DNA of 43,348 bases from Candidatus Aquidulcis sp. (GCA_020723345.1 DYJA01000011.1:1-43348), one strand, 5' to 3'; counted from the first letter of the stretch, positions 24,267 through 43,348 are shown. A program made the numbers and translations. Notes: generated by a model not told the origin, from the sequence alone.

Positions 24267-25229
24267 GTGTCCCAAGGCACCATCACCATCGAAACCATCG
24301 CCAGCGAAGTTCTGCGCGGCAATCCGATCGGCGATCCATTCGTGCGCCGCGTGCCAATCTACTTGCCGCCTGATTACGACAAAAGCAGCGCGCGCTATCC
24401 CGTCGTCTTCGTCCTCGCGGGATTCACCGGGCGCGGTCTCACGTTCTTGAACGACGCGCCGTGGGGCGAAACGATTGCGGAGCGCATGGATCGTTTGATC
24501 GCGCAGGGCAAGGTGCAGCCGATGATTCTCGTGATGCCCGATTGCTTTACGCGCATCGGCGGCAGCCAGTACATCAACTCGCCTGCGGTCGGGCGGTACG
24601 AAGATCACGTCACGCAAGAACTCGTCGCGTTCGTGGACAACAAATATCGCACGATTGCTGATCGCGATCATCGCGCGGTCGTCGGCAAATCGTCGGGCGG
24701 GTACGGCGCGGTGATGCTGGCGATGCGTCATCCCGAAATCTTTGGTATAATGGCGTCGCACAGCGGCGATCTCTATTTCGAGTTTTGCTACAAACCCGAT
24801 TTTGCGGGCGCGCTGCGCGGCTTGAAAAAGTACGGTGGTCTCGACAAATTCTGGAACGAGTTTTCGACGATTCATCCGCATGATCGCGAATTCAACGCGC
24901 TGCTCAACATCGTCGCGATGTCCGCCTGCTACTCGCCGAATCCGAACGCGCCGCATGGTTTCGATCTCCCATTCGACCTCGAAACGGGCGAACTGCGCGA
25001 TGACGTGTGGCAGCGCTGGCTCGCCTGGGATCCCGTCTGCATCGTCGATCAACATCTCGACGCGCTGCGCTCATTGCGGCTGATTTATCTTGACGCGGGC
25101 TTGCGCGACGAATTCAACTTGCAATACGGTGCGCGCATTTTTGCCAAACGCTTGAAAGAGCGCGGCATCAATTTCGTTCACGCAGAATTCGACGACGGAC
25201 ATTTCGACATCCGCTACTCAGTTTCTTGA
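24267..25229 (+). CDS. Esterase (EstD/putative esterase family), C-terminus probably truncated by the mobile element
   Basis: This alpha/beta-hydrolase of 320 residues has an oxyanion-region PVVFVLAGFTGRG, a nucleophile elbow GKSSGGYG (Ser142), an acid in LDAGLRDEFN and a His in FDDGHFDIRY. The GTG start at 24267 is supported by GGAGG 7 nt upstream. The family usually continues some 15 residues past the catalytic His (RYDxSLP-type ending); here it stops after RYSVS. The final 62 bp overlap the end of the serine recombinase gene on the other strand. The end is therefore probably the left attachment junction, with a new C-terminus supplied by the element (inference). The catalytic triad is complete, so activity may remain. 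Confidence 0.85.
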   Translation: MSQGTITIETIASEVLRGNPIGDPFVRRVPIYLPPDYDKSSARYPVVFVLAGFTGRGLTFLNDAPWGETIAERMDRLIAQGKVQPMILVMPDCFTRIGGSQYINSPAVGRYEDHVTQELVAFVDNKYRTIADRDHRAVVGKSSGGYGAVMLAMRHPEIFGIMASHSGDLYFEFCYKPDFAGALRGLKKYGGLDKFWNEFSTIHPHDREFNALLNIVAMSACYSPNPNAPHGFDLPFDLETGELRDDVWQRWLAWDPVCIVDQHLDALRSLRLIYLDAGLRDEFNLQYGARIFAKRLKERGINFVHAEFDDGHFDIRYSVS

Positions 25230-26772
25230 CGTGTTTGCCGATAAGCCCCGTTACTGTTAGATCACTGGTCTTGTAGTCGTAGAAACAAAGCACGCGAAGT
25301 ATTTCAAACAGAGTCGCCCTCTGCTGTGGTGTACCCCAGTCCAACTTTTCCGCAATCTCCGCTGCAACCTGCCTCAGTTGTGCTTCCTCATTACTATCCA
25401 GGATCCTAACCTCACCCAGCCGTTTCAGCATGTCTTCGCGCTCGGACTCGAGTTTTTTGAATTCACCTTGAATCGTGGCTTTCTTCTCGGTGAAGGTCGT
25501 CTTGTCAATCTCGCCGGCAGTGTAAAGGTCCACCAGCCGATTGACTCGATCTCGTGTCTTCTCAATCTGTGCCACAATCACGGCGAGGTTTGCTTCAACC
25601 ATTTTTTGCGCACGTTTTGCTTCCTGACGCATTTCAGCAATGCCCGCAAACAATCGGTCAGGATTCATTAGCGCCTCGCGAACGCATGCCCAAGCGGCAT
25701 CGTCCATGAGATCACCATTGACATGTCCCTTGCATCGTTCGGATTCGGCGACGTCGGTCAGGCTTCGTCGGCAGCGATAGTAATGCCACCGACCACGGCT
25801 CGTCGCTCCATTGTACGTTCCATTGCACACCGCGCATTTCAATCGTCCTGATCCCAGAAGGTAGGTGACCTTAGCAGGACGATGGAACCTGCGTCGGTTC
25901 TCGGCGAGTTGCGCCTGGGCATCCGCAAATAGTTCTTTTGAGATGATCGGTGAGACCGGCACAATGATCGCATCGCTGCGATTGCGCTCTACAACACAGG
26001 ACTTGCGTTTGCCAGGAGCATCCAACAATTGGAATCGTGATTTGCCATAACGCCATTCCCCGATATAGACCGTTGATTTCAGAATCAGTCCGACGGTCCG
26101 TCGAGTCCATCTGCCCCCTTTAGGCGCAGGAATGCCCTTTTCGTTCAGTCGCATGGTGATCGCATAAGTAGTCATACATTCATCGACGAGCCAATGGAAC
26201 ATGACCTCGACAACGCGTGCCTCGGATTCGATCACTACCAGCGTGCAAGAAATCTTGCGTCCGCGTTCATCGCGTTTAGTTTCAAACTTGTATCCATATG
26301 GACGACAGGCAGTGGCAATCACCCTTCCCGTTGCCGCGCGATCGCGCTTGCCTTGCAGCCCGCGTCGCCGAATATTCAACCGCTCAATTCCGCTAACCAA
26401 TTGGTCGGTCGCTTTCAGTGCCAGACCTTCAATCGTCGAGACATCACGCCCAGGGGATGCGTATTCAACCGGAGCGCCGCTTAATTGGGCCAGTAATTCC
26501 AGCTTGGCGATGGCATCGCCGCGTCCCAAGCGGTCAGGAATGTCGCACACAAGCACGTCAATCAGGCCATTGCCCGCCATTTCAAGTAGTTCGTTAAATC
26601 GGGTTCGCGCGAGAACAAAACTGCCAGAGATTGCTTCTACCTGCTCGGTGACAATCTCATAGCCGCGCTCGATGCAATATTGTCTGCAACGCGTCAACTG
26701 AGATTCAGGGCTGGTATTCTCAAGTTGTGCGCCTGTACTCACTCGTGCATATAATCCTGCACGTTTGCTCAC
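25168..26772 (-). CDS. Large serine recombinase (integrase)
   Basis: This is a 534-residue site-specific recombinase, expected to integrate and excise the element. The N-terminal resolvase domain (about 1-150) has the nucleophile Ser12 in YARVSTGAQ, then FVLARTRFNELLEMA and DVLVCDIPDRLGRG. The recombinase domain (about 160-270) has GRVIATACRPYGYKFE and GGRWTRRTVGLILKSTVYIG. A zinc-ribbon follows (LKCAVCNGTYNG... YYRCRRS), and a coiled coil (about 390-460) separates it from the C-terminal tail. It starts with GTG at 26772, which overlaps the stop of the preceding 90-residue gene as GTGA with AGGAGG upstream. Its last ~20 codons run into esterase sequence, as expected of a recombinase sitting at an element end. 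Confidence 0.95.
   Translation of the reverse strand: MSKRAGLYARVSTGAQLENTSPESQLTRCRQYCIERGYEIVTEQVEAISGSFVLARTRFNELLEMAGNGLIDVLVCDIPDRLGRGDAIAKLELLAQLSGAPVEYASPGRDVSTIEGLALKATDQLVSGIERLNIRRRGLQGKRDRAATGRVIATACRPYGYKFETKRDERGRKISCTLVVIESEARVVEVMFHWLVDECMTTYAITMRLNEKGIPAPKGGRWTRRTVGLILKSTVYIGEWRYGKSRFQLLDAPGKRKSCVVERNRSDAIIVPVSPIISKELFADAQAQLAENRRRFHRPAKVTYLLGSGRLKCAVCNGTYNGATSRGRWHYYRCRRSLTDVAESERCKGHVNGDLMDDAAWACVREALMNPDRLFAGIAEMRQEAKRAQKMVEANLAVIVAQIEKTRDRVNRLVDLYTAGEIDKTTFTEKKATIQGEFKKLESEREDMLKRLGEVRILDSNEEAQLRQVAAEIAEKLDWGTPQQRATLFEILRVLCFYDYKTSDLTVTGLIGKHVKKLSSGCRNVRRRILRERN
25196..25232. other. Probable left junction (attL) of the integrated element
   Basis: The esterase reading frame loses family similarity here and the serine recombinase gene begins on the opposite strand. 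A core such as CATTTCGACATCCG would be expected to recur at the other end, but no second copy is seen in the window. The exact crossover is not resolved. Confidence 0.45.
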
Positions 26773-27749: not shown

Positions 27750-27794
27750 GTTGACTATATCAACAATTATATCATAGAGTTCAACCAAAGTCAA
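27750..27794 (-). promoter_or_regulatory. Strong sigma-70 promoter with overlapping operator-like palindrome
   Basis: On the minus strand TTGACT (27789-27794), 17 nt, TATAAT (27766-27771). The palindrome GTTGACTATATCAAC (27750-27764) covers the predicted start site, a typical place for a repressor. The -35 overlaps the stop codon of the HTH gene, whose product is the obvious candidate repressor. Confidence 0.75.
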
Positions 27795-27991
27795 GCAGGT
27801 TTGGGACCACGGCGTTCGCCGAGTTCTTTCACTCGCGTCAAATAAGCAAGCAACGACTTGCGGTTGACTTGCCAGACGGTCGCAAACTTGCGAGCTTTGA
27901 CCTCGCCGGTTCGGGTAAGTCGTCGGATATGTTCTATGTGATATCCGCTCAGTCGAGCAGCTTCTCGAACTGTGATCCACTCATCAGCCAT
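27791..27991 (-). CDS. Excisionase-like / HTH_17 DNA-binding protein
   Basis: This 66-residue basic protein consists of a single MerR-type winged helix: ITVREAARLSGYHIEHIRRL, TRTGEVKARKFATVWQVNRKSLLAYL. Such proteins act as excisionases (directionality factors) or small repressors on mobile elements. GGGGGAG precedes the ATG. Immediately downstream its own stop overlaps a strong promoter with an operator-like palindrome that it might bind (inference). Confidence 0.85.
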   Translation of the reverse strand: MADEWITVREAARLSGYHIEHIRRLTRTGEVKARKFATVWQVNRKSLLAYLTRVKELGERRGPKPA

Positions 27992-28082: not shown

Positions 28083-28280
28083 TTAGTTACGTCTGTCCGA
28101 TGGCTCGTCTGCCTGGGTGGGCCGCGCCGCGTTCTCATTTGAACTCTTGCTACTTGCTTGGGCTGCATCTTTGATCCATGTCAGAATGTATGCGTAAGCG
28201 CGCGCGAGTATCGCTGCCTCTCGATCGGGATTCTTGTGTGTTGTCTGGAAACGAGGATAACTGTTCGGTGTTTGTTGCAT
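28083..28280 (-). CDS. Small element protein, unknown
   Basis: This 65-residue protein has a helical middle (DREAAILARAYAYILTWIKDAAQ) and a hydrophilic tail (SSNENAARPTQADEPSDRRN). AAAGGAG lies 6 nt before the ATG at 28280, which decides the start over an upstream ATG. It is first in the minus-strand series of the element, downstream of leader copy A. No family is recognised. Confidence 0.55.
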   Translation of the reverse strand: MQQTPNSYPRFQTTHKNPDREAAILARAYAYILTWIKDAAQASSKSSNENAARPTQADEPSDRRN

Positions 28281-28295
28281 CTGCTCCTTTCTCAT

Positions 28296-28529
28296 AACTT
28301 GTCAATTGAAGATCAAAAAATGTGGTGTCCTATACATGATTCTCTCCTTCGATGGTGTAAATGCCTCAATTACAAGCTATAGTTTCCCCCGTTACAGGGA
28401 CACTACCGGAATTTGCACCCAACTTTCGATGCTACCCCCTCACGGCGTGGTCAACTCCTTCACCCCGATCCGCTCGTCAGACCAGATTTGTACGTAATAC
28501 AACATAACAGATCTGCCTTCGGCTGAGAA
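28296..28529. other. Non-coding stretch between small gene and leader copy A
   Basis: About 230 bp without a convincing gene on either strand. Short frames exist but lack ribosome-binding sites and family-like patterns. On the minus strand it would be the downstream part of the leader of the 65-residue gene. Confidence 0.5.
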
Positions 28530-28690
28530 GGATTTTTCTGACAATCGCCTCGCGCCATTTGGCGCGCCGAATGCATCGGCACTTGTACATGCAAAGAAAG
28601 CACTCGGCAGGAAAATGAGAACAGCCAAGTGGAAAAGGGAACAACGTCCTTTCGTGCATTCCTAATCGAAATGAAGGGACTCTCCAACAA
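28530..28690 (-). promoter_or_regulatory. Element leader copy A
   Basis: Read on the minus strand: a hairpin around GTCCCTTCATTTCGAT...GGAC, a T-rich tract (TTCCCTTTTCC), a 79-nt spacer, the palindrome CGCGCCAAATGGCGCG (28551-28566), then GGCGATTGTC and AGAAAAATCC. It aligns over about 160 bp with copy B (32858-33018) and shares order and spacing with copy C. It points to the small-gene/excisionase/recombinase side. Confidence 0.6.
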
Positions 28691-28716
28691 GCCGTGCTGC
28701 AACTCATCCCTGAAAA

Positions 28717-30729
28717 GAGAGTGTTGCAGAATTAGGCGTGCGGGGCGTTGAGCGGCGTTGAGGACGCACTTTGCCGCTTGATTTGAGGGTCGCACTTGGT
28801 CTTCAGAACTTACACTCGCTCAATCAACCCAGGTCAGGTCATCCCGGTAACTCCATGCCGCTTGTTCAAACGACGTGCGCTCGGCTTTTGGCAGCCGGTC
28901 CTCCTTCGTCCATCTGATTTCGTGCAGTGCACCCAATGCAATTTCACGGACTCGCGGCTTGCGCGGTCTTGATGTTTAACAACTTCATCCACTTTTTCAG
29001 ATTGTACGCCACGGCATTCATCTTCGCTTGAAAATCGCACTTGAACTTGCCGCGCCGGCGCGCGTTCCGCGCGCCGTTGTAGCGGACGAGCGCGGCAATA
29101 ATCCGTTCCACCCTGGGACGCGCCTGCATATCGAGCTGAAATTGCTCGGTCGCATTGTAGCGGCGCGCCGCTTCCACTTCGCGGCGGTAATCACTGATGA
29201 AGACTTGGCGCATACGCTTCGACCCAGGTTTGTGGGTGCGACATAATTCCCAGACGGGACAATCGCGGCATTGCAGACCCAGGAAACGAAAGAGTCGTCC
29301 GTCGCCACTGCCGGAGCGATACGCGATGGTCGTGGTCTGTTCGTTCGGACACATCAACGTTGTACCATCGTCCGACAATTGAAAGCGGTTGGGGGTGAAT
29401 TTGCCGGTGGGGGTGTGCGTGGGCGGCAGGGGTGCGACGAGTTGCGTTTGTCCCTGGGTCGCTTCGGTGACCAAGGCGCGCGTTTTGCCGTTGCCGGCGG
29501 CCGTATCGTAAATGAATTTCGCGGGAGCCAGGTCGTGGTGTTCCGCTTCGGCGCGGAGCACCGCGGGAATCGCGACGGCATCGGGTTGTGCGCCGGTCTC
29601 GACCTGGATTTCACGGACAAAGTTTTCCGTGACGGCAACTTGGACGTTGTAACCGAAATCGGTTTTGTCGGTGGCGGCGCCATGCACGCGATAGGTCGCT
29701 TCCGGATCGGTGGCACTGCCGAGGCGATACGCGCCTTTGTCGTCCGCCGGTCGTTCGGTGACTTGGGGCAGCGTCGGATTTTCCGTGGGCACGAGCACCA
29801 CTTCATCGGCGATGATTTTGTCGAGATAGCACAACCATTCCAGAATCGGCGTGCGTTGCTCAGCCGATAGCGGGGTGGGCGTGTCGAGTTGGTCGCGCAC
29901 CACGCGCGCACAGTCGAGCGCGGCGCGGACGGTGGTTTGCAAGCGCGCGGCGCGTTCGGTGGGGGTGAGATGAAACTCGCGGCGTTCGTCCTTCGCCCCG
30001 AAGAGCGCGACCGGATCCAAGTCCGCGCGCACGGCGGCGGCGCGTGCCGCATCCACTTTGTGGAGCGCCGCGAGCACGCGTTTGCAGGTGTGGCGTAACA
30101 AATCGACCAAGGATTCTTTCGCCGCATTCGCGCGTAAGGCATACGTATCGCCAACCTGGGAGTGTTGCCGTTCATTGGGAAAGTCGGCGTCAATCTGGCG
30201 CAAAGTTTCATCGAAGAGCGTGCGCGGCTGTTTGCAGCAGACCCACAACTCGAAGCGTTCGAGCGTGGAGTGGTCGGGACCCTCGGCGAAGATCGGATAG
30301 CCGACAAACCATTTGACGACGAGGTTGAAGCCGCGAAGCGTGTGCCATTCGAGATCGCGCAGCGACCAGTTGTAGAGATACTTGACGAGCAAGGCACGCA
30401 CGAGGCGCGGCGCGGGATGTGTGGGAGGCGTCCCCGGTCCGGTCGAGTGATGATAGGGCGCGCACGCGGTTTCGAGGGGAGTGAAGTTGAGGCAGTCCGC
30501 GAGTTTGACGAGGAGATGCGCGGCATCACGTTTGAGGAGCGTGAGGTAAGTTTGGTCGCTCAACCAAACGAGCAGTTGGGTGAGGTAGAGTTTGAAGACA
30601 GCGAGCGCAAAATCGGGTATAATAGGCATGGTGGTCTCTCGTGTACAAAAGGTTGTTGGTCGGCACCACAATCATTGCACATTTTGAGACCACTTTCAAG
30701 TTCACGTCACTGAATTCTGCAACACTCTC
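28717..30729. mobile_element. Intact IS1182-family insertion sequence
   Basis: This 2013-bp element has perfect 17-bp terminal inverted repeats, GAGAGTGTTGCAGAATT at 28717-28733 and its complement at 30713-30729. It is flanked by the direct repeat GAAAA (28712-28716 and 30730-30734), a 5-bp target duplication. It carries one transposase gene and looks recently inserted. It separates leader copies A and C, which would otherwise face each other back to back. Confidence 0.92.
28944..30629 (-). CDS. IS1182-family DDE transposase
   Basis: This 561-residue transposase has an N-terminal DUF772-type region (LVRALLVKYLYNWSLRDLEW, GPDHSTLERFELWV). The catalytic core has Asp in SQVGDTYALRANAAK, a second Asp in KFIYDTAAGNGKT, and a downstream Glu in ISDYRREVEAARRYNAT. 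It includes the family-type HGAATDKTDFGYNVQVAV and a Cys cluster (LQCRDCPVWELCRTHK). The ATG at 30629 begins the conserved protein; upstream codons to 30671 are less likely. The frame is intact within a complete IS, so it is probably functional. Confidence 0.95.
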   Translation of the reverse strand: MPIIPDFALAVFKLYLTQLLVWLSDQTYLTLLKRDAAHLLVKLADCLNFTPLETACAPYHHSTGPGTPPTHPAPRLVRALLVKYLYNWSLRDLEWHTLRGFNLVVKWFVGYPIFAEGPDHSTLERFELWVCCKQPRTLFDETLRQIDADFPNERQHSQVGDTYALRANAAKESLVDLLRHTCKRVLAALHKVDAARAAAVRADLDPVALFGAKDERREFHLTPTERAARLQTTVRAALDCARVVRDQLDTPTPLSAEQRTPILEWLCYLDKIIADEVVLVPTENPTLPQVTERPADDKGAYRLGSATDPEATYRVHGAATDKTDFGYNVQVAVTENFVREIQVETGAQPDAVAIPAVLRAEAEHHDLAPAKFIYDTAAGNGKTRALVTEATQGQTQLVAPLPPTHTPTGKFTPNRFQLSDDGTTLMCPNEQTTTIAYRSGSGDGRLFRFLGLQCRDCPVWELCRTHKPGSKRMRQVFISDYRREVEAARRYNATEQFQLDMQARPRVERIIAALVRYNGARNARRRGKFKCDFQAKMNAVAYNLKKWMKLLNIKTAQAASP

Positions 30730-30754
30730 GAAAAGGATCTGCAACGGGTGAATT

Positions 30755-30870
30755 GCACATTCGACGGGAACGAAAGGACCGATTTGAGAAATTTGCGTAA
30801 ACAGAACCGTCGTGCTACAAGTAAGGGTACATAAATTATCTGGCGCAAAGGCACGCGCCATTTGGCGCGT
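30755..30870 (+). promoter_or_regulatory. Element leader copy C
   Basis: It has the same order as copies A and B: ATTCGACGGGAACGAAAGGAC, a 73-nt spacer, then the palindrome ACGCGCCATTTGGCGCGT (30853-30870). Outside these blocks similarity is weaker. It ends 97 bp before the response-regulator gene. Confidence 0.45.
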
Positions 30871-30967
30871 CAGGTTTCGTGTTTACCACCTTACTTTTCT
30901 CGTTCCCAGAGAGTATCTTTGTCAGTAATAGCAAGATCAATTCTGCAGATTCGGTATTGGAGGAACG

Positions 30968-31681
30968 ATGCCCAAGTCTCCTGTGATTCGCGTGGTTCTG
31001 GCTGACGATCATCCTGTCGTCAGGGAAGGAATAAAGGCATCCTTGGAGAAAGAACCAGGAATTCGTGTCGTGGGTGAAGCGAGCAATGGCGAAGAAGCCA
31101 TCCGCCTGGTGAAAGAAGAGGAGCCCCAGGTCGCGATCTTCGACATCAAAATGCCGCCGCTGAACGGCATCGAAGCGATGAAGCGCGTCTTGAAAGAATG
31201 CCCAGAGACGCGTGTGATCATTTTGACAGGGTATATTAGCGACCCGTATCTGGATGCGGCGCGCCATGCCGGCGCGAGCGGCTTCCTTGACAAACACGCC
31301 AGCTCCGACCAGTGTCGCTTGGCGGTACGGGCCGTTGCGCAGGGAGGAACCTTCTTTTCAGAAGAGACGCATAGACGGCTGGTTCAGCGCGAAAAGGGAA
31401 AATACAATCTAGGTGACCGCTACGTCGAGGTGTTGACGCAGAAAGAACTTGATACGCTCCTCCTTGTAGCCAAGGGTGATTCGAACAAAGAGATTGCCGA
31501 AAAGATTGGGATTGACGCGCGCGCCGTGCAGTCACGGCTACGCAGTATCTACCTCAAACTTGGAGTCTACACTCGGACCGCGGCCGTGAATGTGGCATTG
31601 CGGGAGCACTGGATTGACCTTGACGCAGATGAAGTATTACTGCCGGGAAAACCCATTGGAGGCGAAAAGAATGTGGAGTAG
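30968..31681 (+). CDS. NarL/FixJ-type response regulator
   Basis: This 237-residue DNA-binding response regulator has a complete receiver: acidic pair in VVLADDHPVVREGI, phospho-acceptor Asp in VAIFDIKMPPLNG (about residue 58), Thr in VIILTGYIS and Lys in SGFLDKHAS. The C-terminal HTH (LTQKELDTLLLVAKGDSNKE, IDARAVQSRLRSIYLKLGV) is of the LuxR type. GGAGGA precedes the ATG. The histidine kinase gene overlaps its last 11 bp, so the two form one unit. The genes it controls may include the three leaders of the element (inference). Confidence 0.93.
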   Translation: MPKSPVIRVVLADDHPVVREGIKASLEKEPGIRVVGEASNGEEAIRLVKEEEPQVAIFDIKMPPLNGIEAMKRVLKECPETRVIILTGYISDPYLDAARHAGASGFLDKHASSDQCRLAVRAVAQGGTFFSEETHRRLVQREKGKYNLGDRYVEVLTQKELDTLLLVAKGDSNKEIAEKIGIDARAVQSRLRSIYLKLGVYTRTAAVNVALREHWIDLDADEVLLPGKPIGGEKNVE

Positions 31682-32672
31682 TCTGCGTTTTCGCATCGCT
31701 ATCTTGGTGCTGGCTACCCTCGCCACGGTCATGGTCAGTTTGTTTTCCGTCTCAACCATGACCGTTTCCTCCATGGCAGGTCCATTTCTTGGGCAGTTTG
31801 TGACACTGGCAGTCCTCAGCCTGCTGGGTGTTCTCGTGATCGCGTTCAGCTATCTCTCTCTGCGCCAACTCATTGTTCCCCTACGCATTCTCACCGAGAC
31901 AGTGGATGAAATCGCGCGCGGAGATTACCATGCGGCTGCGAAACCGACTGGCGGGGTGCGCGAAATAGAGCAGTTACGGATGGCGCTTGATCACTTGGCG
32001 CAGCAAGTGCTTGCCGGGCAAGATGCGACGGAGTTCTACATCGCGCGAATTACCGACGCGGAAGAAGAAGAACGGAAACGCCTGGCACGCGAGATCCACG
32101 ACGATACCATCCAGTCGTTGGTGGTCCTGGGACAGCATGTGGACAATCTGCGAGATTTGATTGGGCCAGCGGCACCGGCTACAGTAGCCGTCGCTGAAAT
32201 CCGCAAACAAGTATCCAGTTTGTCAGATTCGCTGCGCCGGTTCGCCAGCGACCTCCGTCCACCCTACTTGGAAGATCTCGGGCTACTCGTCGCGCTGCGA
32301 CAACTCGCGCAAGAATCGGGAGCTCAGATTCAAGTCACCGGTGAAGAATATTCTCTCGGTGTGGACCGCGAGATTGCGCTTTACCGCATTGTCCAGGAAG
32401 CGCTGCGCAACGCGGGCAAACATACTCGGGCGCAGCAAATCGGGTTAAACGTTTCGTTCCTGTCGAACCAAATCATCGTCACGATAGCGGACGATGGAGA
32501 AGGTTTCGACGTGCCGGCAGACCGAACGGCATTCGCCCGCACGAATCATTTCGGGCTGATGGGGATGCAGGAGCGCGCTCACCTATTGGGCGGCGCCTTG
32601 CAGATCAGGTCTGCGCGCGGCAAAGGAACTGAGGTTAAGGTGAGTGTGCCGCGCGCGATCAAGGCATCCTAA
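31671..32672 (+). CDS. NarX-type sensor histidine kinase
   Basis: This 333-residue membrane kinase has two N-terminal membrane segments (FRIAILVLATLATVMVSLF; FVTLAVLSLLGVLVIAFSYL), which leave almost no external sensor loop. A HAMP domain follows (LIVPLRILTETVDEIARGDY). The HisKA_3 domain has the phospho-His in KRLAREIHDDTIQSLVVLG, the HDxxxQ-type motif. The ATPase domain has N box EALRNAGKHT, G1 DDGEGFDV and G2 HFGLMGMQERAHLLGG. The ATG at 31671 overlaps the response-regulator stop. With such a short external part it probably senses within the membrane or cytoplasm. Confidence 0.93.
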   Translation: MWSSLRFRIAILVLATLATVMVSLFSVSTMTVSSMAGPFLGQFVTLAVLSLLGVLVIAFSYLSLRQLIVPLRILTETVDEIARGDYHAAAKPTGGVREIEQLRMALDHLAQQVLAGQDATEFYIARITDAEEEERKRLAREIHDDTIQSLVVLGQHVDNLRDLIGPAAPATVAVAEIRKQVSSLSDSLRRFASDLRPPYLEDLGLLVALRQLAQESGAQIQVTGEEYSLGVDREIALYRIVQEALRNAGKHTRAQQIGLNVSFLSNQIIVTIADDGEGFDVPADRTAFARTNHFGLMGMQERAHLLGGALQIRSARGKGTEVKVSVPRAIKAS

Positions 32673-32857
32673 TCCTGGCGTCGGTTTCTCGCAACTTGCA
32701 ACTCCTCTCGGATGCTCCCAAGAACGTCGATCGTCTCATCCCCGAAGGCAACGCGAAATCAACTGCATTCGCCTCTGATCCAGTCTCCTGAGTTACCTCT
32801 CTCGACCTGGGATTACTCCCTCACCTTTTCTCGTAGGATGATTGAGCAACATTAGAT

Positions 32858-33018
32858 TGAGGCGTCCCATCCATTTCGATATGAAATGGATGCAAGGACG
32901 CCGTTTCTTTTTCCTCTTGGATGTTCCCACTTCACCGCCCAGAGTTTTTCGCCCGCGCAAATGCCGACACATTCAGCGCGCCATTTGGCGCGCGGCGAGT
33001 GTTGGAAAAATCCTTACC
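32858..33018 (+). promoter_or_regulatory. Element leader copy B
   Basis: On the plus strand: a perfect-stemmed hairpin (GGCGTCC 32861-32867 with GGACGCC 32896-32902, inner CATCCATTTC/GAAATGGATG), the T-rich GTTTCTTTTTCC, a 76-nt spacer, the palindrome GCGCGCCATTTGGCGCGC (32976-32993), then GGCGAGTGTTGGAAAAATCC. It is the inverted homologue of copy A. The hairpin plus T-tract also qualifies as an intrinsic terminator for the two-component operon, so it may be a terminator/attenuator followed by the primase promoter. A CCTTAC/GTAAGG inverted pair follows near 33012-33031. Confidence 0.65.
32861..32912 (+). terminator. Terminator-like hairpin within leader copy B
   Basis: A long stem with an interior loop followed by GTTTCTTTTT. 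It lies 190 bp after the histidine kinase gene and 140 bp before the primase gene. Confidence 0.6.
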
Positions 33019-33051
33019 CGCTAATGTAAGGTACGGTATGCTGTCGTCCAT

Positions 33052-35601
33052 ATGGTCAAACCTCTTGAGACGGAAATCGGAGAGATGAAGTTATCCGACA
33101 ACTCTTTGCGACTTGTGACGACGACGCATCGCGGCGGAGAATATGGGTACTGGTGGAATGCGGAGAGCAAGCAAAGCATCTGGTGGCAGTCCGTCAACCC
33201 AACGGCTATTCCTTCAGGGCAGGGCAATTGGTTCTATGGGATCCATCCGACGAGCCACAAGCGCAGCAATCACGAGCGTGCGCGAATCGGGGACATCGCC
33301 GGCATCAATTGTGTCTTCGCCGATTTCGACGCGGCGGATTTTTGCGACAAAGGAAAAGCGCGGGAGCACATTGATGCATTGAAAGTCTCGCCATCTGTCA
33401 TCGTCGATAGCGGCGGGGGCTATCATTGCTACTGGTTCTTGTGCGATACGTTCGTGATCACGACTGAGTCAGATCGAGACCGCGCCCGCCAATTGCAGGC
33501 GGACTGGGTTGTGTTGGTCGGAGGCGATCTTGGCGCGAAAGACCTCGCACGAGTCCTGCGTGTTCCTGGCACGCACAACCTCAAGCCGCAGTATGCGCCG
33601 AACTATCCACTCGTTGATTTCGCGCGCGCGGATTTGGAACTGGTCTACGCGCTTGAGGATCTTGAGCGACTGACCATCTGCGTCACCCGTGCGCCACGCG
33701 GATTTCCAACTCGACAGAATGCCCCCAGTCGCATCAATGATGCAACGGCTTTGCAGCGCGAGATCGACACACTCTTAGCGACTGCCGAGGGCAACCGCAA
33801 TACGCAGTTGAACAAATCCGCGTTCACGCTCGGTCAACTCGTCGCGACTGGATCGCTTGATCGTTCGACCGTCGAGGCGCGCCTCTCTGATGCCGCGCGG
33901 ACGGTTGGGCTGGGAGCACGCGAAGCCATCGCAACGATTCAAAGTGGACTGGATGCCGGGATGAGAGTGCCACGCCTGGTGCGAAATCAGCATTCCGAAC
34001 ATCCTGCCGCGAAAACTTTGGAGGAGGACTTGGGCGGTGACGACAACTTGATCAACGTGCGGATCGCAGAGTTGGAAGCGAAGGTGGAGGGGGTGCCAAC
34101 GGATACCGACAAGCTGCGCCTGCCCCTGGTGCTGCGCCCGATCCTTGAGGAGCTTGCGCCAATGGACAAAGCAATCGCTAGCGCGTTTCTGAACTACAAG
34201 ATCAAACCGCACTTTGGGCTCACCTATTCGGCAGTCCGCGCATACGAAAGCGATCTGGCGAAACTGCGCGATGCCTGGGAACAATCAGAGCAGATACGCC
34301 AGGTCAAGGAGAGGGCGGCGGAGGAAGAGGCACAAGCCGCCAAAGTAAGGGAGATGACAAACGAAGAACGCGCCGAAGCAATCGCTTTTCTCCAAGACCC
34401 GCGCCTGTTCGAGCGCATTGTCGAAGACATTACCACGTTGGGCTACGTCGGCGAGGACGCCAACAAAATTCTCCAGTATCTGGTGGCGACATCGCGCAAA
34501 CAGGATCGTCCTCTTTCGACGGTCATCAAGAGTCCGTCGGCTTGGGGCAAATCAGAGATGGTCAAAAAGGTTGTGCGCTTGATGCCGCCCGAGGACGTGG
34601 TCGAATACACGCGGTTAACGGCTCAGTCTCTGGCGTACCTGCCTCCGAACGCATTGCAACACAAGTTCATGGCGGTGACGGAACGCGACGGCTCTGAGGA
34701 AAGTGACTATACCATTCGGGTCCTGCAATCGGAGAATATAATTCGAGTTGCATATGCTGCAAAGGATCCACTGACGGGAGAAATGCGCACGCGGGAGAAT
34801 CAGGTCAACGGGCCGATGGCGTATACCGAGACGACGACGCGTCCCACCATTCACAACGAGAACGCGACGCGCGTTTTCGAGCTGTATCTGGACGGGACCG
34901 AGAAACAAACACAACGCGTCCATGAACTACAGCGAAGGAATGCGACCCTTGAGGGATTGCGGAGCGAGAAAGAGAAGGAAGCGATTGTGCGTCGGCATCG
35001 CAACGCTCAGCGGTTATTAGAGCCGGTCAAGGTGGTGATTCCTTATGCTGACTTGATCAAATTCCCGGCGGACATTCCACGCACGCGACGTGACTTGCCG
35101 CGTTTTCTGGAAGTCATCAAGGCGATTGCCTTCCTTCGCCAGAAGCAAAAACCCAAGAAGACAGATTCGGATCCCAGGATGAATGATAGACTCGAGTACA
35201 TCGAAGCAGATTTGGCGGATTATGAGGTGGCTTATCGCTATGCTGCCCCGGCAATTGCCGCGGGATTGGATGAACTGACGGAACACAGTCGAGCCCTGTT
35301 GGGAATCATTCGCGCTGGCTTGGCAAGATGGGTGAGCGAAGATGAAGGCAAACCAGAGCACGAACGACGCAGCACGTTCACTCGTTCTGACATCGCGACC
35401 TGGGCAAAAACGACCTACGATTTTGTGGTGACCTACGTTCGTCCACTTGAGAATAGAGAATACCTTGAGGTTATCAGCGGTGGGCAAGGAAAGAAATACG
35501 TCTACAAGATAAGCGAAGAGGGTCAACTCGACGAGGGCATGTTGACGATCCGTGGACTGAGTACTCCGGCCGAGATCGCGGAGTCTATCGCATTGGAATG
35601 A
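33052..35601 (+). CDS. Primase-ATPase of the mobile element (AEP-type primase + P-loop domain)
   Basis: This 849-residue replication protein has an N-terminal part (about 60-220) resembling archaeo-eukaryotic (RepB/PrimPol-type) primases: INCVFADFDAADF (metal-binding Asp pair), SVIVDSGGGYHCYWF and KDLARVLRVPGTHNLKP. A PriCT-like helical segment follows (SDAARTVGLGAREAIATIQSGL). A coiled stretch (about 410-450) leads to an ATPase-like region with SPSAWGKSEMVKKV as Walker A (about 488-501). The C-terminus has a winged-helix-like end (FTRSDIATWAKTTYDFVV). It should prime and unwind the element for replication or after transfer. The start at 33052 may be leaderless; a second ATG is at 33085. Confidence 0.8.
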   Translation: MVKPLETEIGEMKLSDNSLRLVTTTHRGGEYGYWWNAESKQSIWWQSVNPTAIPSGQGNWFYGIHPTSHKRSNHERARIGDIAGINCVFADFDAADFCDKGKAREHIDALKVSPSVIVDSGGGYHCYWFLCDTFVITTESDRDRARQLQADWVVLVGGDLGAKDLARVLRVPGTHNLKPQYAPNYPLVDFARADLELVYALEDLERLTICVTRAPRGFPTRQNAPSRINDATALQREIDTLLATAEGNRNTQLNKSAFTLGQLVATGSLDRSTVEARLSDAARTVGLGAREAIATIQSGLDAGMRVPRLVRNQHSEHPAAKTLEEDLGGDDNLINVRIAELEAKVEGVPTDTDKLRLPLVLRPILEELAPMDKAIASAFLNYKIKPHFGLTYSAVRAYESDLAKLRDAWEQSEQIRQVKERAAEEEAQAAKVREMTNEERAEAIAFLQDPRLFERIVEDITTLGYVGEDANKILQYLVATSRKQDRPLSTVIKSPSAWGKSEMVKKVVRLMPPEDVVEYTRLTAQSLAYLPPNALQHKFMAVTERDGSEESDYTIRVLQSENIIRVAYAAKDPLTGEMRTRENQVNGPMAYTETTTRPTIHNENATRVFELYLDGTEKQTQRVHELQRRNATLEGLRSEKEKEAIVRRHRNAQRLLEPVKVVIPYADLIKFPADIPRTRRDLPRFLEVIKAIAFLRQKQKPKKTDSDPRMNDRLEYIEADLADYEVAYRYAAPAIAAGLDELTEHSRALLGIIRAGLARWVSEDEGKPEHERRSTFTRSDIATWAKTTYDFVVTYVRPLENREYLEVISGGQGKKYVYKISEEGQLDEGMLTIRGLSTPAEIAESIALE

Positions 35602-36125: not shown

Positions 36126-39100
36126 ATGCGAAATCTAGCCATCTATCGCTGTCCGAAATGCAGAACCCAATACCGCCCGCTTGATGCCGGCGCACGCCGC
36201 TTCATCTGTTGTGGTATAGCGCTCGAACGCATCAAGACGGGCGCACGCGGGTTTGCGGCTATTCCGCAACTCAGTGCGCTTTCGCCACAACTCGGCGCGC
36301 CCATGCGTCCTGTGGTGGTGAGTGCCCCAGCACGTCAGTCGTCCACGGGCCCGACTGAGGTTCTTGAGATCATTCCCCCGCGCGACAATACGGTCGACGC
36401 GCTCGCGGTGGAACTCCTGCTCAGTCGGTTTGCAACTGAGACACCGTTTTCGCTTGAGATTGCTGGCGATTCGCACATGCGGCGTTTCACAATTCGCGCG
36501 CCGCACGAAACCCTCGCGCATCTCCGCCGCCAGATTCAGGCGACCTATCCCCAAGCCGAGTTCCGAACCGTTCCGCCTGAAGAGGATCCGGCGTACGACC
36601 ATAAACTCGCGCAGATGTCAGCGGATTTCACTTTGCGGCGACAGCTGTATCTTCCCTTGCGAACCTTCCGCAACGGCGATTTCCTCGAAGCCGATCCGGT
36701 GCTCGGACTCCTCGGCACGTTTGCCGACCTGGAACAAGGGGAACGGATGCTGTCGCAACTGATTCTCTTTCCCGCGCCGGCGAACTGGGCAGATCGTTAC
36801 CAAGGCATGGAGCGTCAGGTTGACCCATCCAGAGGCGAAGTGCCACGTTCTGCGAGTTTGTTCATGCGGCAACTCGTTGGATTGGTTGTGGCAATCATTT
36901 TTCTCGCGACGGTGTTGTGCGGGGTCATCACGTACCTGCAACACCGCTGGTTGGAATTCGGTGTGGCTCTTGTCACCGGAGTGGTAATACTCACGGGATT
37001 GCTCTACGTGATTAAACTGATGATGGACGAGACCAACATCAATCCCGAAATGGTAAAACGAAAATTGGAGGGTTCGTCGGCATATGACGTCTCACTTCGT
37101 CTGACCGCGTTCGCGCAAACCCCCGAACTCACACGACTGCGCTTGCGGTCGCTCGTCAAAGCGTACGCTCAATTCAATCTCGCGAGCGGGAACGCGCTCG
37201 AGCCGCACATCGCGGAGTTTGATCCCCGCGACATCTCGCTGCCATGCAAACCGTTGTGGGACGAATGGTTGGATCGCGGGGTGCGCCTGACCGTCGCCGA
37301 GATCGCGTCGATGTGGCATCTGCCAGTTGGATTCGAGGCGCCGTTCGTCGAACGCGCCAAAGCGAAACGACTCCTGCCCCTGCCCAATACTGTCGAGCAA
37401 GGGATTCTGATTGGGCATTCGGTGCATCAAGGGCAACGGATTCCCGTGCATCTGGATGCCGATACATTGTGGCATCACAACTTTATGGTCGCCAAGACCC
37501 AGAAGGGCAAGTCAACGTTAATGGCAAATCTCGCGGTCGAGGCGATGAAGAAAGCCGCGGCGGTCGTCGTGATCGATCCGCACGGCGACCTGGCGCGCGC
37601 GGTGCTCGGCGTCGTTCCGCCTTCGCGCGCGAAGGATGTCGTTTACGTCGATCTGAGCCTGTTTTCAAGGGTTACGCGATTCTTATCGCTTTTGAGCACC
37701 AAATTGAACGCTTTTCAGACGCAGTTTACGTAAGAACACTCGAAACTGCATTGAAACAGCGGCAAAATGAATAAGATTTCGACAACCCTTGAATACAGGC
37801 TGAGCGACTCAAGCCAGATCGTCGGGCTGAATCTGCTGGACATGACGCAGGGACGCAGCGCGGATAGGGTCGTTTCGCACCTCGTCCACGTCGGCGAAAT
37901 GATCTGGAGTGACTACTGGGGACCGCGGATGGAAGACGCGCTGCGAATGGCGGCGCGCACCTTGCTCTACATCAACGAACGCTTCGCGGCGCACGGACAG
38001 CAGCAATTCACGCTCCTCGATATTCTGCCACTCTTTGAATTGGGCAACTTTCGCCATCGCCTCTTGAAGGATTACGTCAAAGACGCCGACATTCTGGAAT
38101 GGTGGAGCGGCTACTTTGAGCGCATGTATCAGAATCTGCAGATCGACGTGATCAACCCAGTCCAGACCAAGATTCACCGCTTTTCGACGCACGCGACGAT
38201 TCGCGGCGTTGTCGCGCAATCCCGGTCGACGATCAACTTTCGCGAACTCCTCGCTGAACGCCGCATTCTGTTGGTCAACACAGCGACAGGGGTGATCGGT
38301 CCCGATGCCGGCGGAATCCTGGGCGCGGTGATCGTGGATTACATCAACTTTGCCGTGCGCGAGCAGATGGCAATTCCCGATCCGTCGGCGCGCGCCAAGG
38401 TCATCGTCGTGATCGATGAATTCCAATCCATCCCTGGCGTGGATTACAAGGGACTACTCGCCGAATTGCAAAAGATGGGCGAGTTTCATTCTCGCGACCC
38501 AGGCATTGGGGCAGCTCGATGCAATCAACAAAGAATTGCGCGCCTCGATTCTGTCGAACATCGCGTCACTCTTTGTGTTCCAGACGAGCGCGGAGGATGC
38601 CGATTTGTTGCGGCACGAATTGGACGAGGCGGTGACCGCGACCGACATCATCAATCTGGACGACTACGCCTGCTACGTCAAAACCCAGTTGCGGCACACG
38701 CGGCTTCCTGTGATGCACGTCGCGACGCTGCCCCCGCCGCCGCAGAATCGTGCGGTCATCGCGCAGATTACCGAACAGATGGGACGGTACACGCGTGCGA
38801 TGTCCGTCGTCGCCTCCGAACGCGATGCTTTTCAGGAACAATGGTACGGCCGTGAGCGCGCGATGCTGAAAAAGTTGATGTTGGAAAACAAACTCCCTGG
38901 TTCGACCAGGGATCGATCAGGTGATAAAAGGAACGCAGAGAGTCCCAAGCCACCGGCGTCAAGTCAGACACCGTCGGATGACAGTTCGGTAGTCAGGGGC
39001 AGTGAGTCAAGCACGTCAGGTCAAATTCCACCGGAGGCAGATTCGGTGATTGACGGTACAGAACCAGCAGCGTTAGGTCAAACGCCAGGAGCCGATTTGG

Positions 39101-39237
39101 TGATTCGCGGTAATGAAACAATGGAGTCAGAGCAGAATCCTCTGAATGGTAACCTGGGAGTTTCGGAAGACCAAGCCGAACGAGACCGCCGTGCGCGCAA
39201 TGAGGAGGGGGATGAAGAAGCGATCGCTAATCCGTGA
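36126..39237 (+). pseudogene. VirD4/TraG-like conjugative coupling ATPase, broken by a MITE and a frameshift
   Basis: The gene encodes a DNA-transfer coupling protein that would link the relaxosome to a type IV secretion channel. From the ATG it has a zinc-ribbon (YRCPKCRTQYRP... FICCGIALE), a soluble domain, two membrane segments (LVGLVVAIIFLATVLCGVIT; FGVALVTGVVILTGLLYVI), and Walker A VAKTQKGKSTLMANL followed by VVVIDPHGDLARAV. A 142-bp insertion plus 5-bp duplication at 37653-37804 adds 49 in-frame codons containing stops. The frame resumes at DSSQIVGLNLLDMTQG and reaches Walker B IVVIDEFQSIPG. A 2-nt loss near 38478-38483 then shifts it to the frame of SFILATQALGQLDAINKEL. The tail is acidic low-complexity. 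Transfer by its own coupling protein is therefore lost. Confidence 0.85.
37658..37799. mobile_element. 142-bp MITE with 16-bp terminal inverted repeats
   Basis: The ends are CCTGTTTTCAAGGGTT (37658-37673) and AACCCTTGAATACAGG (37784-37799), complementary in 15 of 16 positions. CTGAG flanks both sides (37653-37657 and 37800-37804). Removing the element with one CTGAG restores an uninterrupted coupling-protein frame (VYVDLS joined to DSSQIVG). No transposase is encoded, so it depends on a transposase elsewhere. Confidence 0.85.
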
Positions 39238-41373: not shown

Positions 41374-43348
41374 TCAGCGAGGCAAAGCATATACGCTTTG
41401 ACCTTCGCCGTAGTAGGAATCAAAGACGTGTTGATAAACGACGTCACATTTGGCGCGGTAGAGATCGGGCATATATGTTTTGGGTAGTCGCTCAAGATTC
41501 TGCTGGATCACAACGCGCACCGCCGCGCGCGCCTGCTGTTTCTTGCGCCAGTCGAGTACGAGTTTCGATTCCTTCAGTGTCCCCAAAAGTTCTTGCGCCA
41601 CTTTGCGGACTTGCTTCTTTTCCGCAGCGGTTAGCTGCAAATCGGGCTTGGTCAACAAATCAAAGAGCGCGAGTTCCTCTTCGGTGAGTTGTTCGGCGAT
41701 ACCGCGTTTTTCTTCCTCGTTCAATCCCCGCGCGAATTTGACCAACTGCGCGAAGAACGCATCTACATTCGTTGCGCCTGCGTTATAGTCCGCGATCATC
41801 TGTTGGAATTTCTCGTAATAGTCCATCCGCGTCCGATTGAGCCGCACCATCTTGCTCAGTTTGCGATTGATGACGCCGCGCAATTGCTCGACTTCGGTTT
41901 GTTTCCGACTCGCATCGAATTGTTTCTTGAGCGCATCGAAATCAACCTGGCTTAGATCGAGCAGTGCTTTCTCAGGAGTAGTGCGGGAGATTGCGTATGT
42001 TACAGGGGTTATGGATTGATCGAGCAAGTCCTCGACCTTCTTTGCCGCACTACCAATCTCTGGCTTGTCCTCGAACGTCCGAATCTTGTCGGCGAGCGCG
42101 CGCACGAGATGGTAAGTTGCCGCGAATTCACTCGCCGCGCGGTCGGGCAAAACCGCTTGATAGAGTTGCACGACATCCGATGCCAATAACGAAAACTTGC
42201 GTTTGATGTCGTCGTTCTTGACGAGCGCATCTGCCGCTTGACCGAATAGCGCGACGCGTTGCAATTCCTTCGCCGTTATGATTGCCTTCAAATCCACACG
42301 TTGCTTTCGACAGAACGTGCGCGTTTCCTCGACGGCACGACGCAAGTCCTCTACCAACTCGCGCTTTGCTTGCACGGGTGTATCGCCAGGTTCGATGCCG
42401 CCGCCCGACGCCGATCCGTAAATCGCGAGCGCTTGTTGCAGATTGCGAAAGACGCCGATGTAATCCACGATCAAGCCGTTGATCTTGTCGCCAAAGACGC
42501 GGTTGGCGCGGGCAATCGTCTGCATCAAGGTGTGGTTACGCATCGGCTTGTCGAGATAAATCGTCGCGCACGATGGCACGTCAAACCCCGTCATCCACAT
42601 CGCGCAGACAAAGACGATGCGAAATGGATCGTTCGGGTCTTTGAACTTGGTGTCCAGGTCTTCTCTCACAATGCGGCGACGGTGCGGTTCGATGTCAACG
42701 CCTTTGGCGCGCAAATCCTCGATCTCGTTTTGCGATTGCGATACGACGACCGCCAGATCGGTCTCTTGCATAAACTGGATGCGCGCTTGAATTTTCTCGC
42801 GCGCCTCAGCGTGCGCGTCGGACAATTCCGCTTGCCAAAAGACAAGTTGCTGGCTCCAGAATTTTTTCACCTTGTCGTACATCTTGACCGCCGTCGCCTT
42901 GTCCACCGCGACAACCATCGCTTTGGAACGGTCTATCTGATCGGCGGGCGTGAGCAAACCGTAGTCGTCGGGCTGATCCATTTTCTTGAACGCGCGGACG
43001 AGGAAATGCTGAACAATGTCCTCGGCGATTTTCTCCAGACGCTCGTCGCGCGTGATGAGGTGATACTCGCGCGTAAATTCGCGTTCGAGACGTTTCTCTT
43101 GCGCTTCGTCTACGGCGGCATCATCAAGCACACGTTCCATATCTTCGTTCAATTCTTCGTTCGTGAGTTGCAGTTCAGGAATGCGATTTTCGTAGTAGAG
43201 TGGAACAGTCGCGTGATCGTCCGCCGATTGCTTGAAATTGTAGATGCTGACGTAATCGCCAAAGACCTGGCGCGTGCGTTCTTCGCCGACAATCAACGGC
43301 GTGCCCGTGAACGCGAGGAACGCGGCATTTGGCAGCGCATTCCGCATA
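41374..43348 (-). CDS. hsdR: Type I restriction enzyme R subunit HsdR, N-terminal part outside the window
   Basis: The visible C-terminal part (at least 657 residues) belongs to the DNA-translocating and cleaving subunit of a type I restriction system. It contains the helicase motifs FTGTPLIVGEERTRQVFGDY (motif III and onward), IVFVCAMWMTGFDVPSCATI (motif V) and QTIARANRVFGDKINGLIVD (motif VI), followed by the HsdR C-terminal helical domain and the ending VYALPR. The nuclease and Walker A parts lie beyond the right edge. hsdM and hsdS are not in the window. Codon style resembles the left chromosomal genes more than the mobile genes, so it may be outside the element or an older cargo. It converges on the 65-residue gene. 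Confidence 0.92.
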   Translation of the reverse strand, partial: MRNALPNAAFLAFTGTPLIVGEERTRQVFGDYVSIYNFKQSADDHATVPLYYENRIPELQLTNEELNEDMERVLDDAAVDEAQEKRLEREFTREYHLITRDERLEKIAEDIVQHFLVRAFKKMDQPDDYGLLTPADQIDRSKAMVVAVDKATAVKMYDKVKKFWSQQLVFWQAELSDAHAEAREKIQARIQFMQETDLAVVVSQSQNEIEDLRAKGVDIEPHRRRIVREDLDTKFKDPNDPFRIVFVCAMWMTGFDVPSCATIYLDKPMRNHTLMQTIARANRVFGDKINGLIVDYIGVFRNLQQALAIYGSASGGGIEPGDTPVQAKRELVEDLRRAVEETRTFCRKQRVDLKAIITAKELQRVALFGQAADALVKNDDIKRKFSLLASDVVQLYQAVLPDRAASEFAATYHLVRALADKIRTFEDKPEIGSAAKKVEDLLDQSITPVTYAISRTTPEKALLDLSQVDFDALKKQFDASRKQTEVEQLRGVINRKLSKMVRLNRTRMDYYEKFQQMIADYNAGATNVDAFFAQLVKFARGLNEEEKRGIAEQLTEEELALFDLLTKPDLQLTAAEKKQVRKVAQELLGTLKESKLVLDWRKKQQARAAVRVVIQQNLERLPKTYMPDLYRAKCDVVYQHVFDSYYGEGQSVYALPR

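Follow-up and report, generated by a model that had tools for sequence, protein, structure and literature searches.

A known mobile element that carries its own two-component system is the Bacteroides conjugative transposon CTnDOT, in which RteA and RteB govern the genes for excision and transfer and may act on genes of the host as well (PMC1976400). The RteB protein acts via RteC and responds to tetracycline. Response regulators of the NarL type, including those of the NarX/NarL, DevR and VraR systems, combine Response_reg and GerE domains and activate from upstream sites; NarL recognizes inverted repeats of the 7-2-7 type, one of which, at -67.5, is enough to activate a promoter whose -10 hexamer is TATCTT (PMC7419079). 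Yet another mobile element, ICEclc, places transfer competence under a bistable switch (PMC7423338).

Here we consider a mobile element of Candidatus Aquidulcis sp. contained in a window of 43,348 nucleotides, by which we mean the whole stretch of DNA that was analysed (GCA_020723345.1 DYJA01000011.1:1-43348). Like CTnDOT, the element carries a two-component pair that may control its excision and transfer genes, as judged here from gene order and operators. However, its response regulator is of the NarL/LuxR type, the putative operator is located directly at three promoters of the element, and relatives of the pair are found in copper-type loci of the chromosome. The 7-2-7 layout and the predicted activation from upstream sites resemble NarL, whereas the operator (CGCGCCA/TGGCGCG) differs from the NarL heptamer and the kinase has no sensor domain. 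Positive feedback, proposed for one of the three sites, could act in the manner of the ICEclc switch; the proteins differ from those of ICEclc, and bistability in our element is at most suggested by a predicted autoregulatory site. Our main reading, to which we assign a probability of roughly 0.7, is that the element's response regulator binds at the three sites, referred to as A, B and C, and activates all three transcription units.

Modules A (28500..28687, minus strand) and B (32857..33043, plus strand) are homologous and have arisen by duplication, with 71% identity over 189 nt in a blastn comparison (E about 1e-27). The alignment of about 160 bp described in the original prediction is thus borne out and is somewhat longer, running from 28687 to 28500 on the minus strand against 32857 to 33043 on the plus strand. 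Module A faces the small genes, the excisionase-like gene and the serine recombinase gene and is also similar to a counterpart, A', in a sister element of the same genus (G039); module B faces the primase gene. The palindrome CGCGCCATTTGGCGCG, with the symmetric structure CGCGCCA-AA-TGGCGCG in A, is exact at all three sites, namely operator A (28551..28566, minus), operator B (32977..32992, plus) and operator C (30854..30869, plus), the last of which is located 5' of the response regulator gene and is kept in the sister copy C'. The distances from GGAC to the palindrome, given earlier as 79, 76 and 73 nt, were measured as 79, 77 and 74 nt and so agree to within 1 nt. The claim that C is a third copy of a single leader did not hold, since its common ground with A and B is the palindrome CGCGCCAWWTGGCGCG only. 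Outside these 16 nt no blastn similarity of C to A or B was detected, and the proposed anchor GAAAGGAC is not kept in C'. A TGGCGC half-site is found a few bases 5' of operator C (30841-30846) and a similar one, TTTGGCGCG, is present in C'; these half-sites are possible second sites for the response regulator. A 20-nt match to A in a viral contig (L150) does not include the palindrome and was dismissed as a chance match.

Sites A and C are separated by an insertion sequence (28717..30729, minus) with a transposase of the DDE_Tnp_1_6/DUF772 type, perfect terminal repeats of 17 bp and a target site, GAAAA, that is duplicated at 28712-28716 and 30730-30734. This insertion sequence, absent from the original prediction, is a later insertion outside the regulatory system. 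With the insertion sequence removed on paper, A and C form one divergent promoter region, as they do in G039, and this region can be aligned from end to end with A' and C' of the sister element, which are contiguous there (contig C200). Both sites are kept in the latter, and the block that contains the operator and the promoter, from just 5' of the palindrome to ACGTACAAA, is identical at 94 of 99 positions between A and A'. The two central A/T bases of the palindrome are flipped between C and C', which fits a DNA site with internal symmetry. The original prediction had called for further copies upstream of homologous element genes in relatives, and A' and C' are such copies for A and C. The contig of G039 breaks off within the primase gene, so that for operator B we have a single example. 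Similarity of the G039 response regulator to that of our element stops at residue 167, near a contig end (L073 1-121), which may reflect a truncation, an insertion or a misassembly; a close homologue of the kinase was not found in G039.

The comparison with the sister element also bears on whether the repeats are transcribed 5' RNA leaders with a conserved fold that is read by a regulator. As predicted, a GTCC/GGAC hairpin can be formed in both A (28646..28680, minus) and B (32861..32902, plus), and the strong hairpin of B, which is followed by GTTTCTTTTTCC, folds better than each of 200 shuffled sequences. However, a clear excess over shuffles is seen in B only (z = -4.8), whereas A (z = -2.0), A' (z = -1.6) and C (z = -1.0) do not fold much better than shuffled sequences, and C has no hairpin. 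Furthermore, the hairpin half is identical at only 36 of 67 positions between A and A', with a 16-nt deletion inside the hairpin, as compared to 94/99 in the operator-promoter block, so that the hairpin is not kept in A' and the suggested selection on structure in A is not supported. A search of Rfam returned no family match for the repeats. Since the palindrome is placed 5' of a predicted promoter and its core also occurs 5' of unrelated chromosomal operons, the conserved unit is better described as DNA upstream of a predicted promoter, and we consider a structured leader very unlikely. The hairpin of B is located 3' of the kinase gene and 5' of a T-rich run, and it is likely to be the terminator of the response regulator-kinase operon; it was not listed by a simple terminator scan. 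The weak hairpin of A may then be a terminator that was copied along with the module and is decaying in its new position.

The unit downstream of A begins with a small open reading frame of 70 amino acids (28083..28295, minus), the first annotated one past A, to which a similar short open reading frame was seen by eye at the same place in an element of another genome (G301). The unit also encodes an HTH_17 excisionase-like protein (27791..27991, minus) and ends with a serine recombinase (25168..26772, minus), both identified by domain matches. A protein of the G301 element matches the HTH_17 protein at 92% identity, the other shared genes being far less similar, and the G301 element has no two-component pair. 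The first gene past B encodes a replication protein of the primase/helicase type (33052..35601, plus) with a weak match to RepB_primase. Plasmid-encoded matches cover the C-terminal half only, at about 36% identity, and no relatives were found in viral contigs. Further downstream, a gene for an ATPase of the HerA/DUF87 type is broken up into three open reading frames that overlap and lie in different frames (36126-39237), while its G301 counterpart is a single open reading frame of 967 amino acids (L044 13688-16591); the split represents either frameshifts or assembly errors. The right end of the window encodes a protein similar to type I restriction subunits, with SWI2/SNF2 and T1R domains (41374-43347).

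All three sites are organized alike, with the palindrome followed by 21 nt, TTNNNN, 17 nt and TATNNT. The hexamers of the predicted promoters are TTCTCA (28529-28524) and TATGTT (28506-28501) for A (28501..28529, minus), TTACTT (30891-30896) and TATCTT (30914-30919) for C (30891..30919, plus), and TTACCC (33014-33019) and TATGCT (33037-33042) for B (33014..33042, plus), where the predicted start falls just 5' of the ATG at 33052. The promoters of A and B were identified from consensus matches only. The spacing in C represents independent evidence, because C is otherwise unlike A and B; a promoter match at that exact place has a probability of 0.002 in shuffled sequences, and the hexamers are kept in C' as TTACTT/TATCCT. 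A general promoter scan did not list any of the three, which are weak matches to the consensus. Assuming a start 7 nt past the -10 hexamer, the palindrome would be centred near -64.5, upstream of the predicted promoter and in a position that suits an activator; the NarL site at -67.5 mentioned above is a close parallel.

We also considered the possibility that the palindromes are operators for a repressor of the three promoters, either the response regulator or a different dimeric protein, for instance the HTH_17 protein. Palindromic operators are common among repressors and the unit past A itself encodes an excisionase-like protein with an HTH. However, the site is located about 64 bp 5' of the predicted start and not over the promoter, and the elements that encode a relative of the HTH_17 protein in the absence of a two-component pair, such as the one in G301, lack the site even when one mismatch is allowed, with the exception of a 1-mismatch match in L076. 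Repression thus appears quite unlikely, and activation by the response regulator is the reading that we favor.

The operator core CGCCATTTGGCG is present in seven copies in the 6.34-Mb host genome, three in the element and two each on contigs C111 and C106. The sites on C111 are found beside genes for a response regulator (51% identity to that of the element), a kinase (46%) and a metal P-type ATPase, and those on C106 are accompanied by the remnant of a kinase, pieces of an ATPase and a multicopper oxidase. The C-terminal kinase remnant and the fragments of the P-type ATPase gene are located by two exact cores (L102 5122-5490), and the composition of the locus suggests that it is a decayed copper-type locus. 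Across ten genomes, 79 core sites were identified as compared to four for the reversed control. In each of eight genomes drawn from these ten, all of the same order and with the chromosomal response regulator gene located, a site was found within 2.5 kb of that gene, giving 9 such sites against 0.09 expected.

Many of the chromosomal sites are located 5' of operons for a multicopper oxidase and a SHOCT protein, for PCYCGC/Fer4/cytochrome c-COX2, for an HMA protein and for DoxX. A -10-like TAnnnT hexamer was observed at an offset of 61-62 from the operator start in 7 of 25 promoter-directed chromosomal sites, the offset in A, B and C being 60, and further small groups have their hexamers at offsets of 73 and 85-87. 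The core is not exclusive to the copper-type regulon, since a large share of the 79 sites have no gene from our panel in their vicinity. Exact 16-mer matches such as C4:61570 and several in relatives (L090, L091, L093, L096, L099 and L101), for which no copper-type panel gene was nearby or which were inspected by eye, look unrelated and were set aside. To judge from its content of multicopper oxidase, HMA and P-type ATPase genes, the regulon may respond to copper. In literature searches we found nothing directly relevant on copper-controlled excision of integrative and conjugative elements or on a copper motif in the Anaerolineae, and no description of the operator and gene set of a copper-type regulon in a Chloroflexi order.

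The distribution of the core also speaks to a different role for A and B, namely as inverted repeats around an invertible or mobile segment, or as repeats of a replication origin. The two modules are mutually inverted and flank the two-component genes. Yet the same palindrome recurs at a third place, C, the arrangement of A and C is the same in G039, and the chromosomal copies are located in the promoters of copper-type operons. We regard a function in recombination or replication as highly improbable and retain the interpretation of A, B and C as promoter-associated operators.

The response regulator of the element (30968..31681, plus) has the Response_reg (PF00072) and GerE/LuxR HTH (PF00196) domains of the NarL/LuxR type, and its best matches in the PDB are VraR, DevR and NarL. 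The 7-2-7 layout of the site fits a NarL-like operator, and the core is linked to this response regulator family by genomic proximity. In a tree of 23 response regulators, the protein clusters with the G039 fragment in a clade that is sister to the response regulators from the copper loci (support 0.97-0.98). Identity to the chromosomal proteins is about 51-54%; the recognition helices have VQ in common and differ at neighbouring positions.

Likewise, the kinase (31671..32672, plus; 333 amino acids) is a HisKA_3 sensor kinase with two transmembrane segments, a HAMP domain and the HisKA_3 and HATPase_c domains, and it is 47-52% identical to the kinases of the copper loci over residues 48-327 (tblastn). 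The next relatives in four genomes do not exceed 39% over comparable lengths, apart from a 46% match over a shorter stretch. Both proteins thus group with the copper-locus pair of the order. In the chromosomal kinases, which are 540 amino acids long, a segment of roughly 210 residues with a weak match to dCache_1 separates the transmembrane helices. This segment is missing from the kinase of the element, in which the two transmembrane segments are close together and no dCache-like extracytoplasmic sensor was identified. The missing segment and the close relationship to the copper-locus pair together indicate that the two-component pair of the element is related to the circuit of the host but is devoid of its sensor; judging from its domain composition, the input of the kinase has presumably changed with the loss of the extracytoplasmic sensor. 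The linkage of the core to related response regulator and kinase loci across the order, and the placement of the element's pair as their closest relatives, support the original proposal of a common regulator: the three units are probably controlled by the same protein, for which the adjacent two-component pair is the best candidate.

The loss of the sensor raises the question of whether the three operators could be bound chiefly by the copper-type response regulator of the host chromosome and not by that of the element, such that stress in the host would drive the element directly. The operator core is common to the element and the host loci, and the host system on C111 is apparently complete. 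On the other hand, operator C is located at the promoter of the element's own response regulator gene and is kept in G039, where all further matches in a search for relatives of the response regulator stayed at or below about 40% identity. We therefore consider it unlikely that the host protein is the main binder. A mixed arrangement, in which the host copper-type system acts either by activating the element's response regulator or by direct binding to the three operators, while the element's pair only amplifies the signal by positive feedback, is a minor option of similarly low probability. If so, the sensor of the kinase may have been lost because it was no longer needed, and metal or redox stress in the host would be the direct trigger of excision and replication.

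According to our main reading, in which the element's own response regulator is the activator, A, B and C would be DNA operators, each about 64 bp 5' of a weak predicted promoter. The adjacent kinase would control the response regulator, which in its phosphorylated form would bind the 7-2-7 palindrome as a dimer. Binding at A would activate the unit that contains the small genes and the genes for the excisionase-like protein and the recombinase, binding at B the primase unit, and binding at C the operon of the response regulator and the kinase itself. In this manner a single switch, reinforced by positive feedback, would couple excision and replication. In host chromosomes, the related two-component system that belongs to the copper-type loci would use the same operator core, and the element would carry a diverged relative of this system. 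A borrowed stress-response circuit thus probably decides when the element excises and replicates, as far as can be judged from sequence comparisons.

Our findings name candidates for the regulator, the operator and the trigger of a mobile element in the Chloroflexi, all of which are open to testing. For an order of this phylum, they also provide a predicted operator, with the core CGCCAWWTGGCG, and the genes of a copper-type regulon. More broadly, they suggest that a circuit related to a stress response of the host was taken over by a mobile element, which removed the sensor from it.
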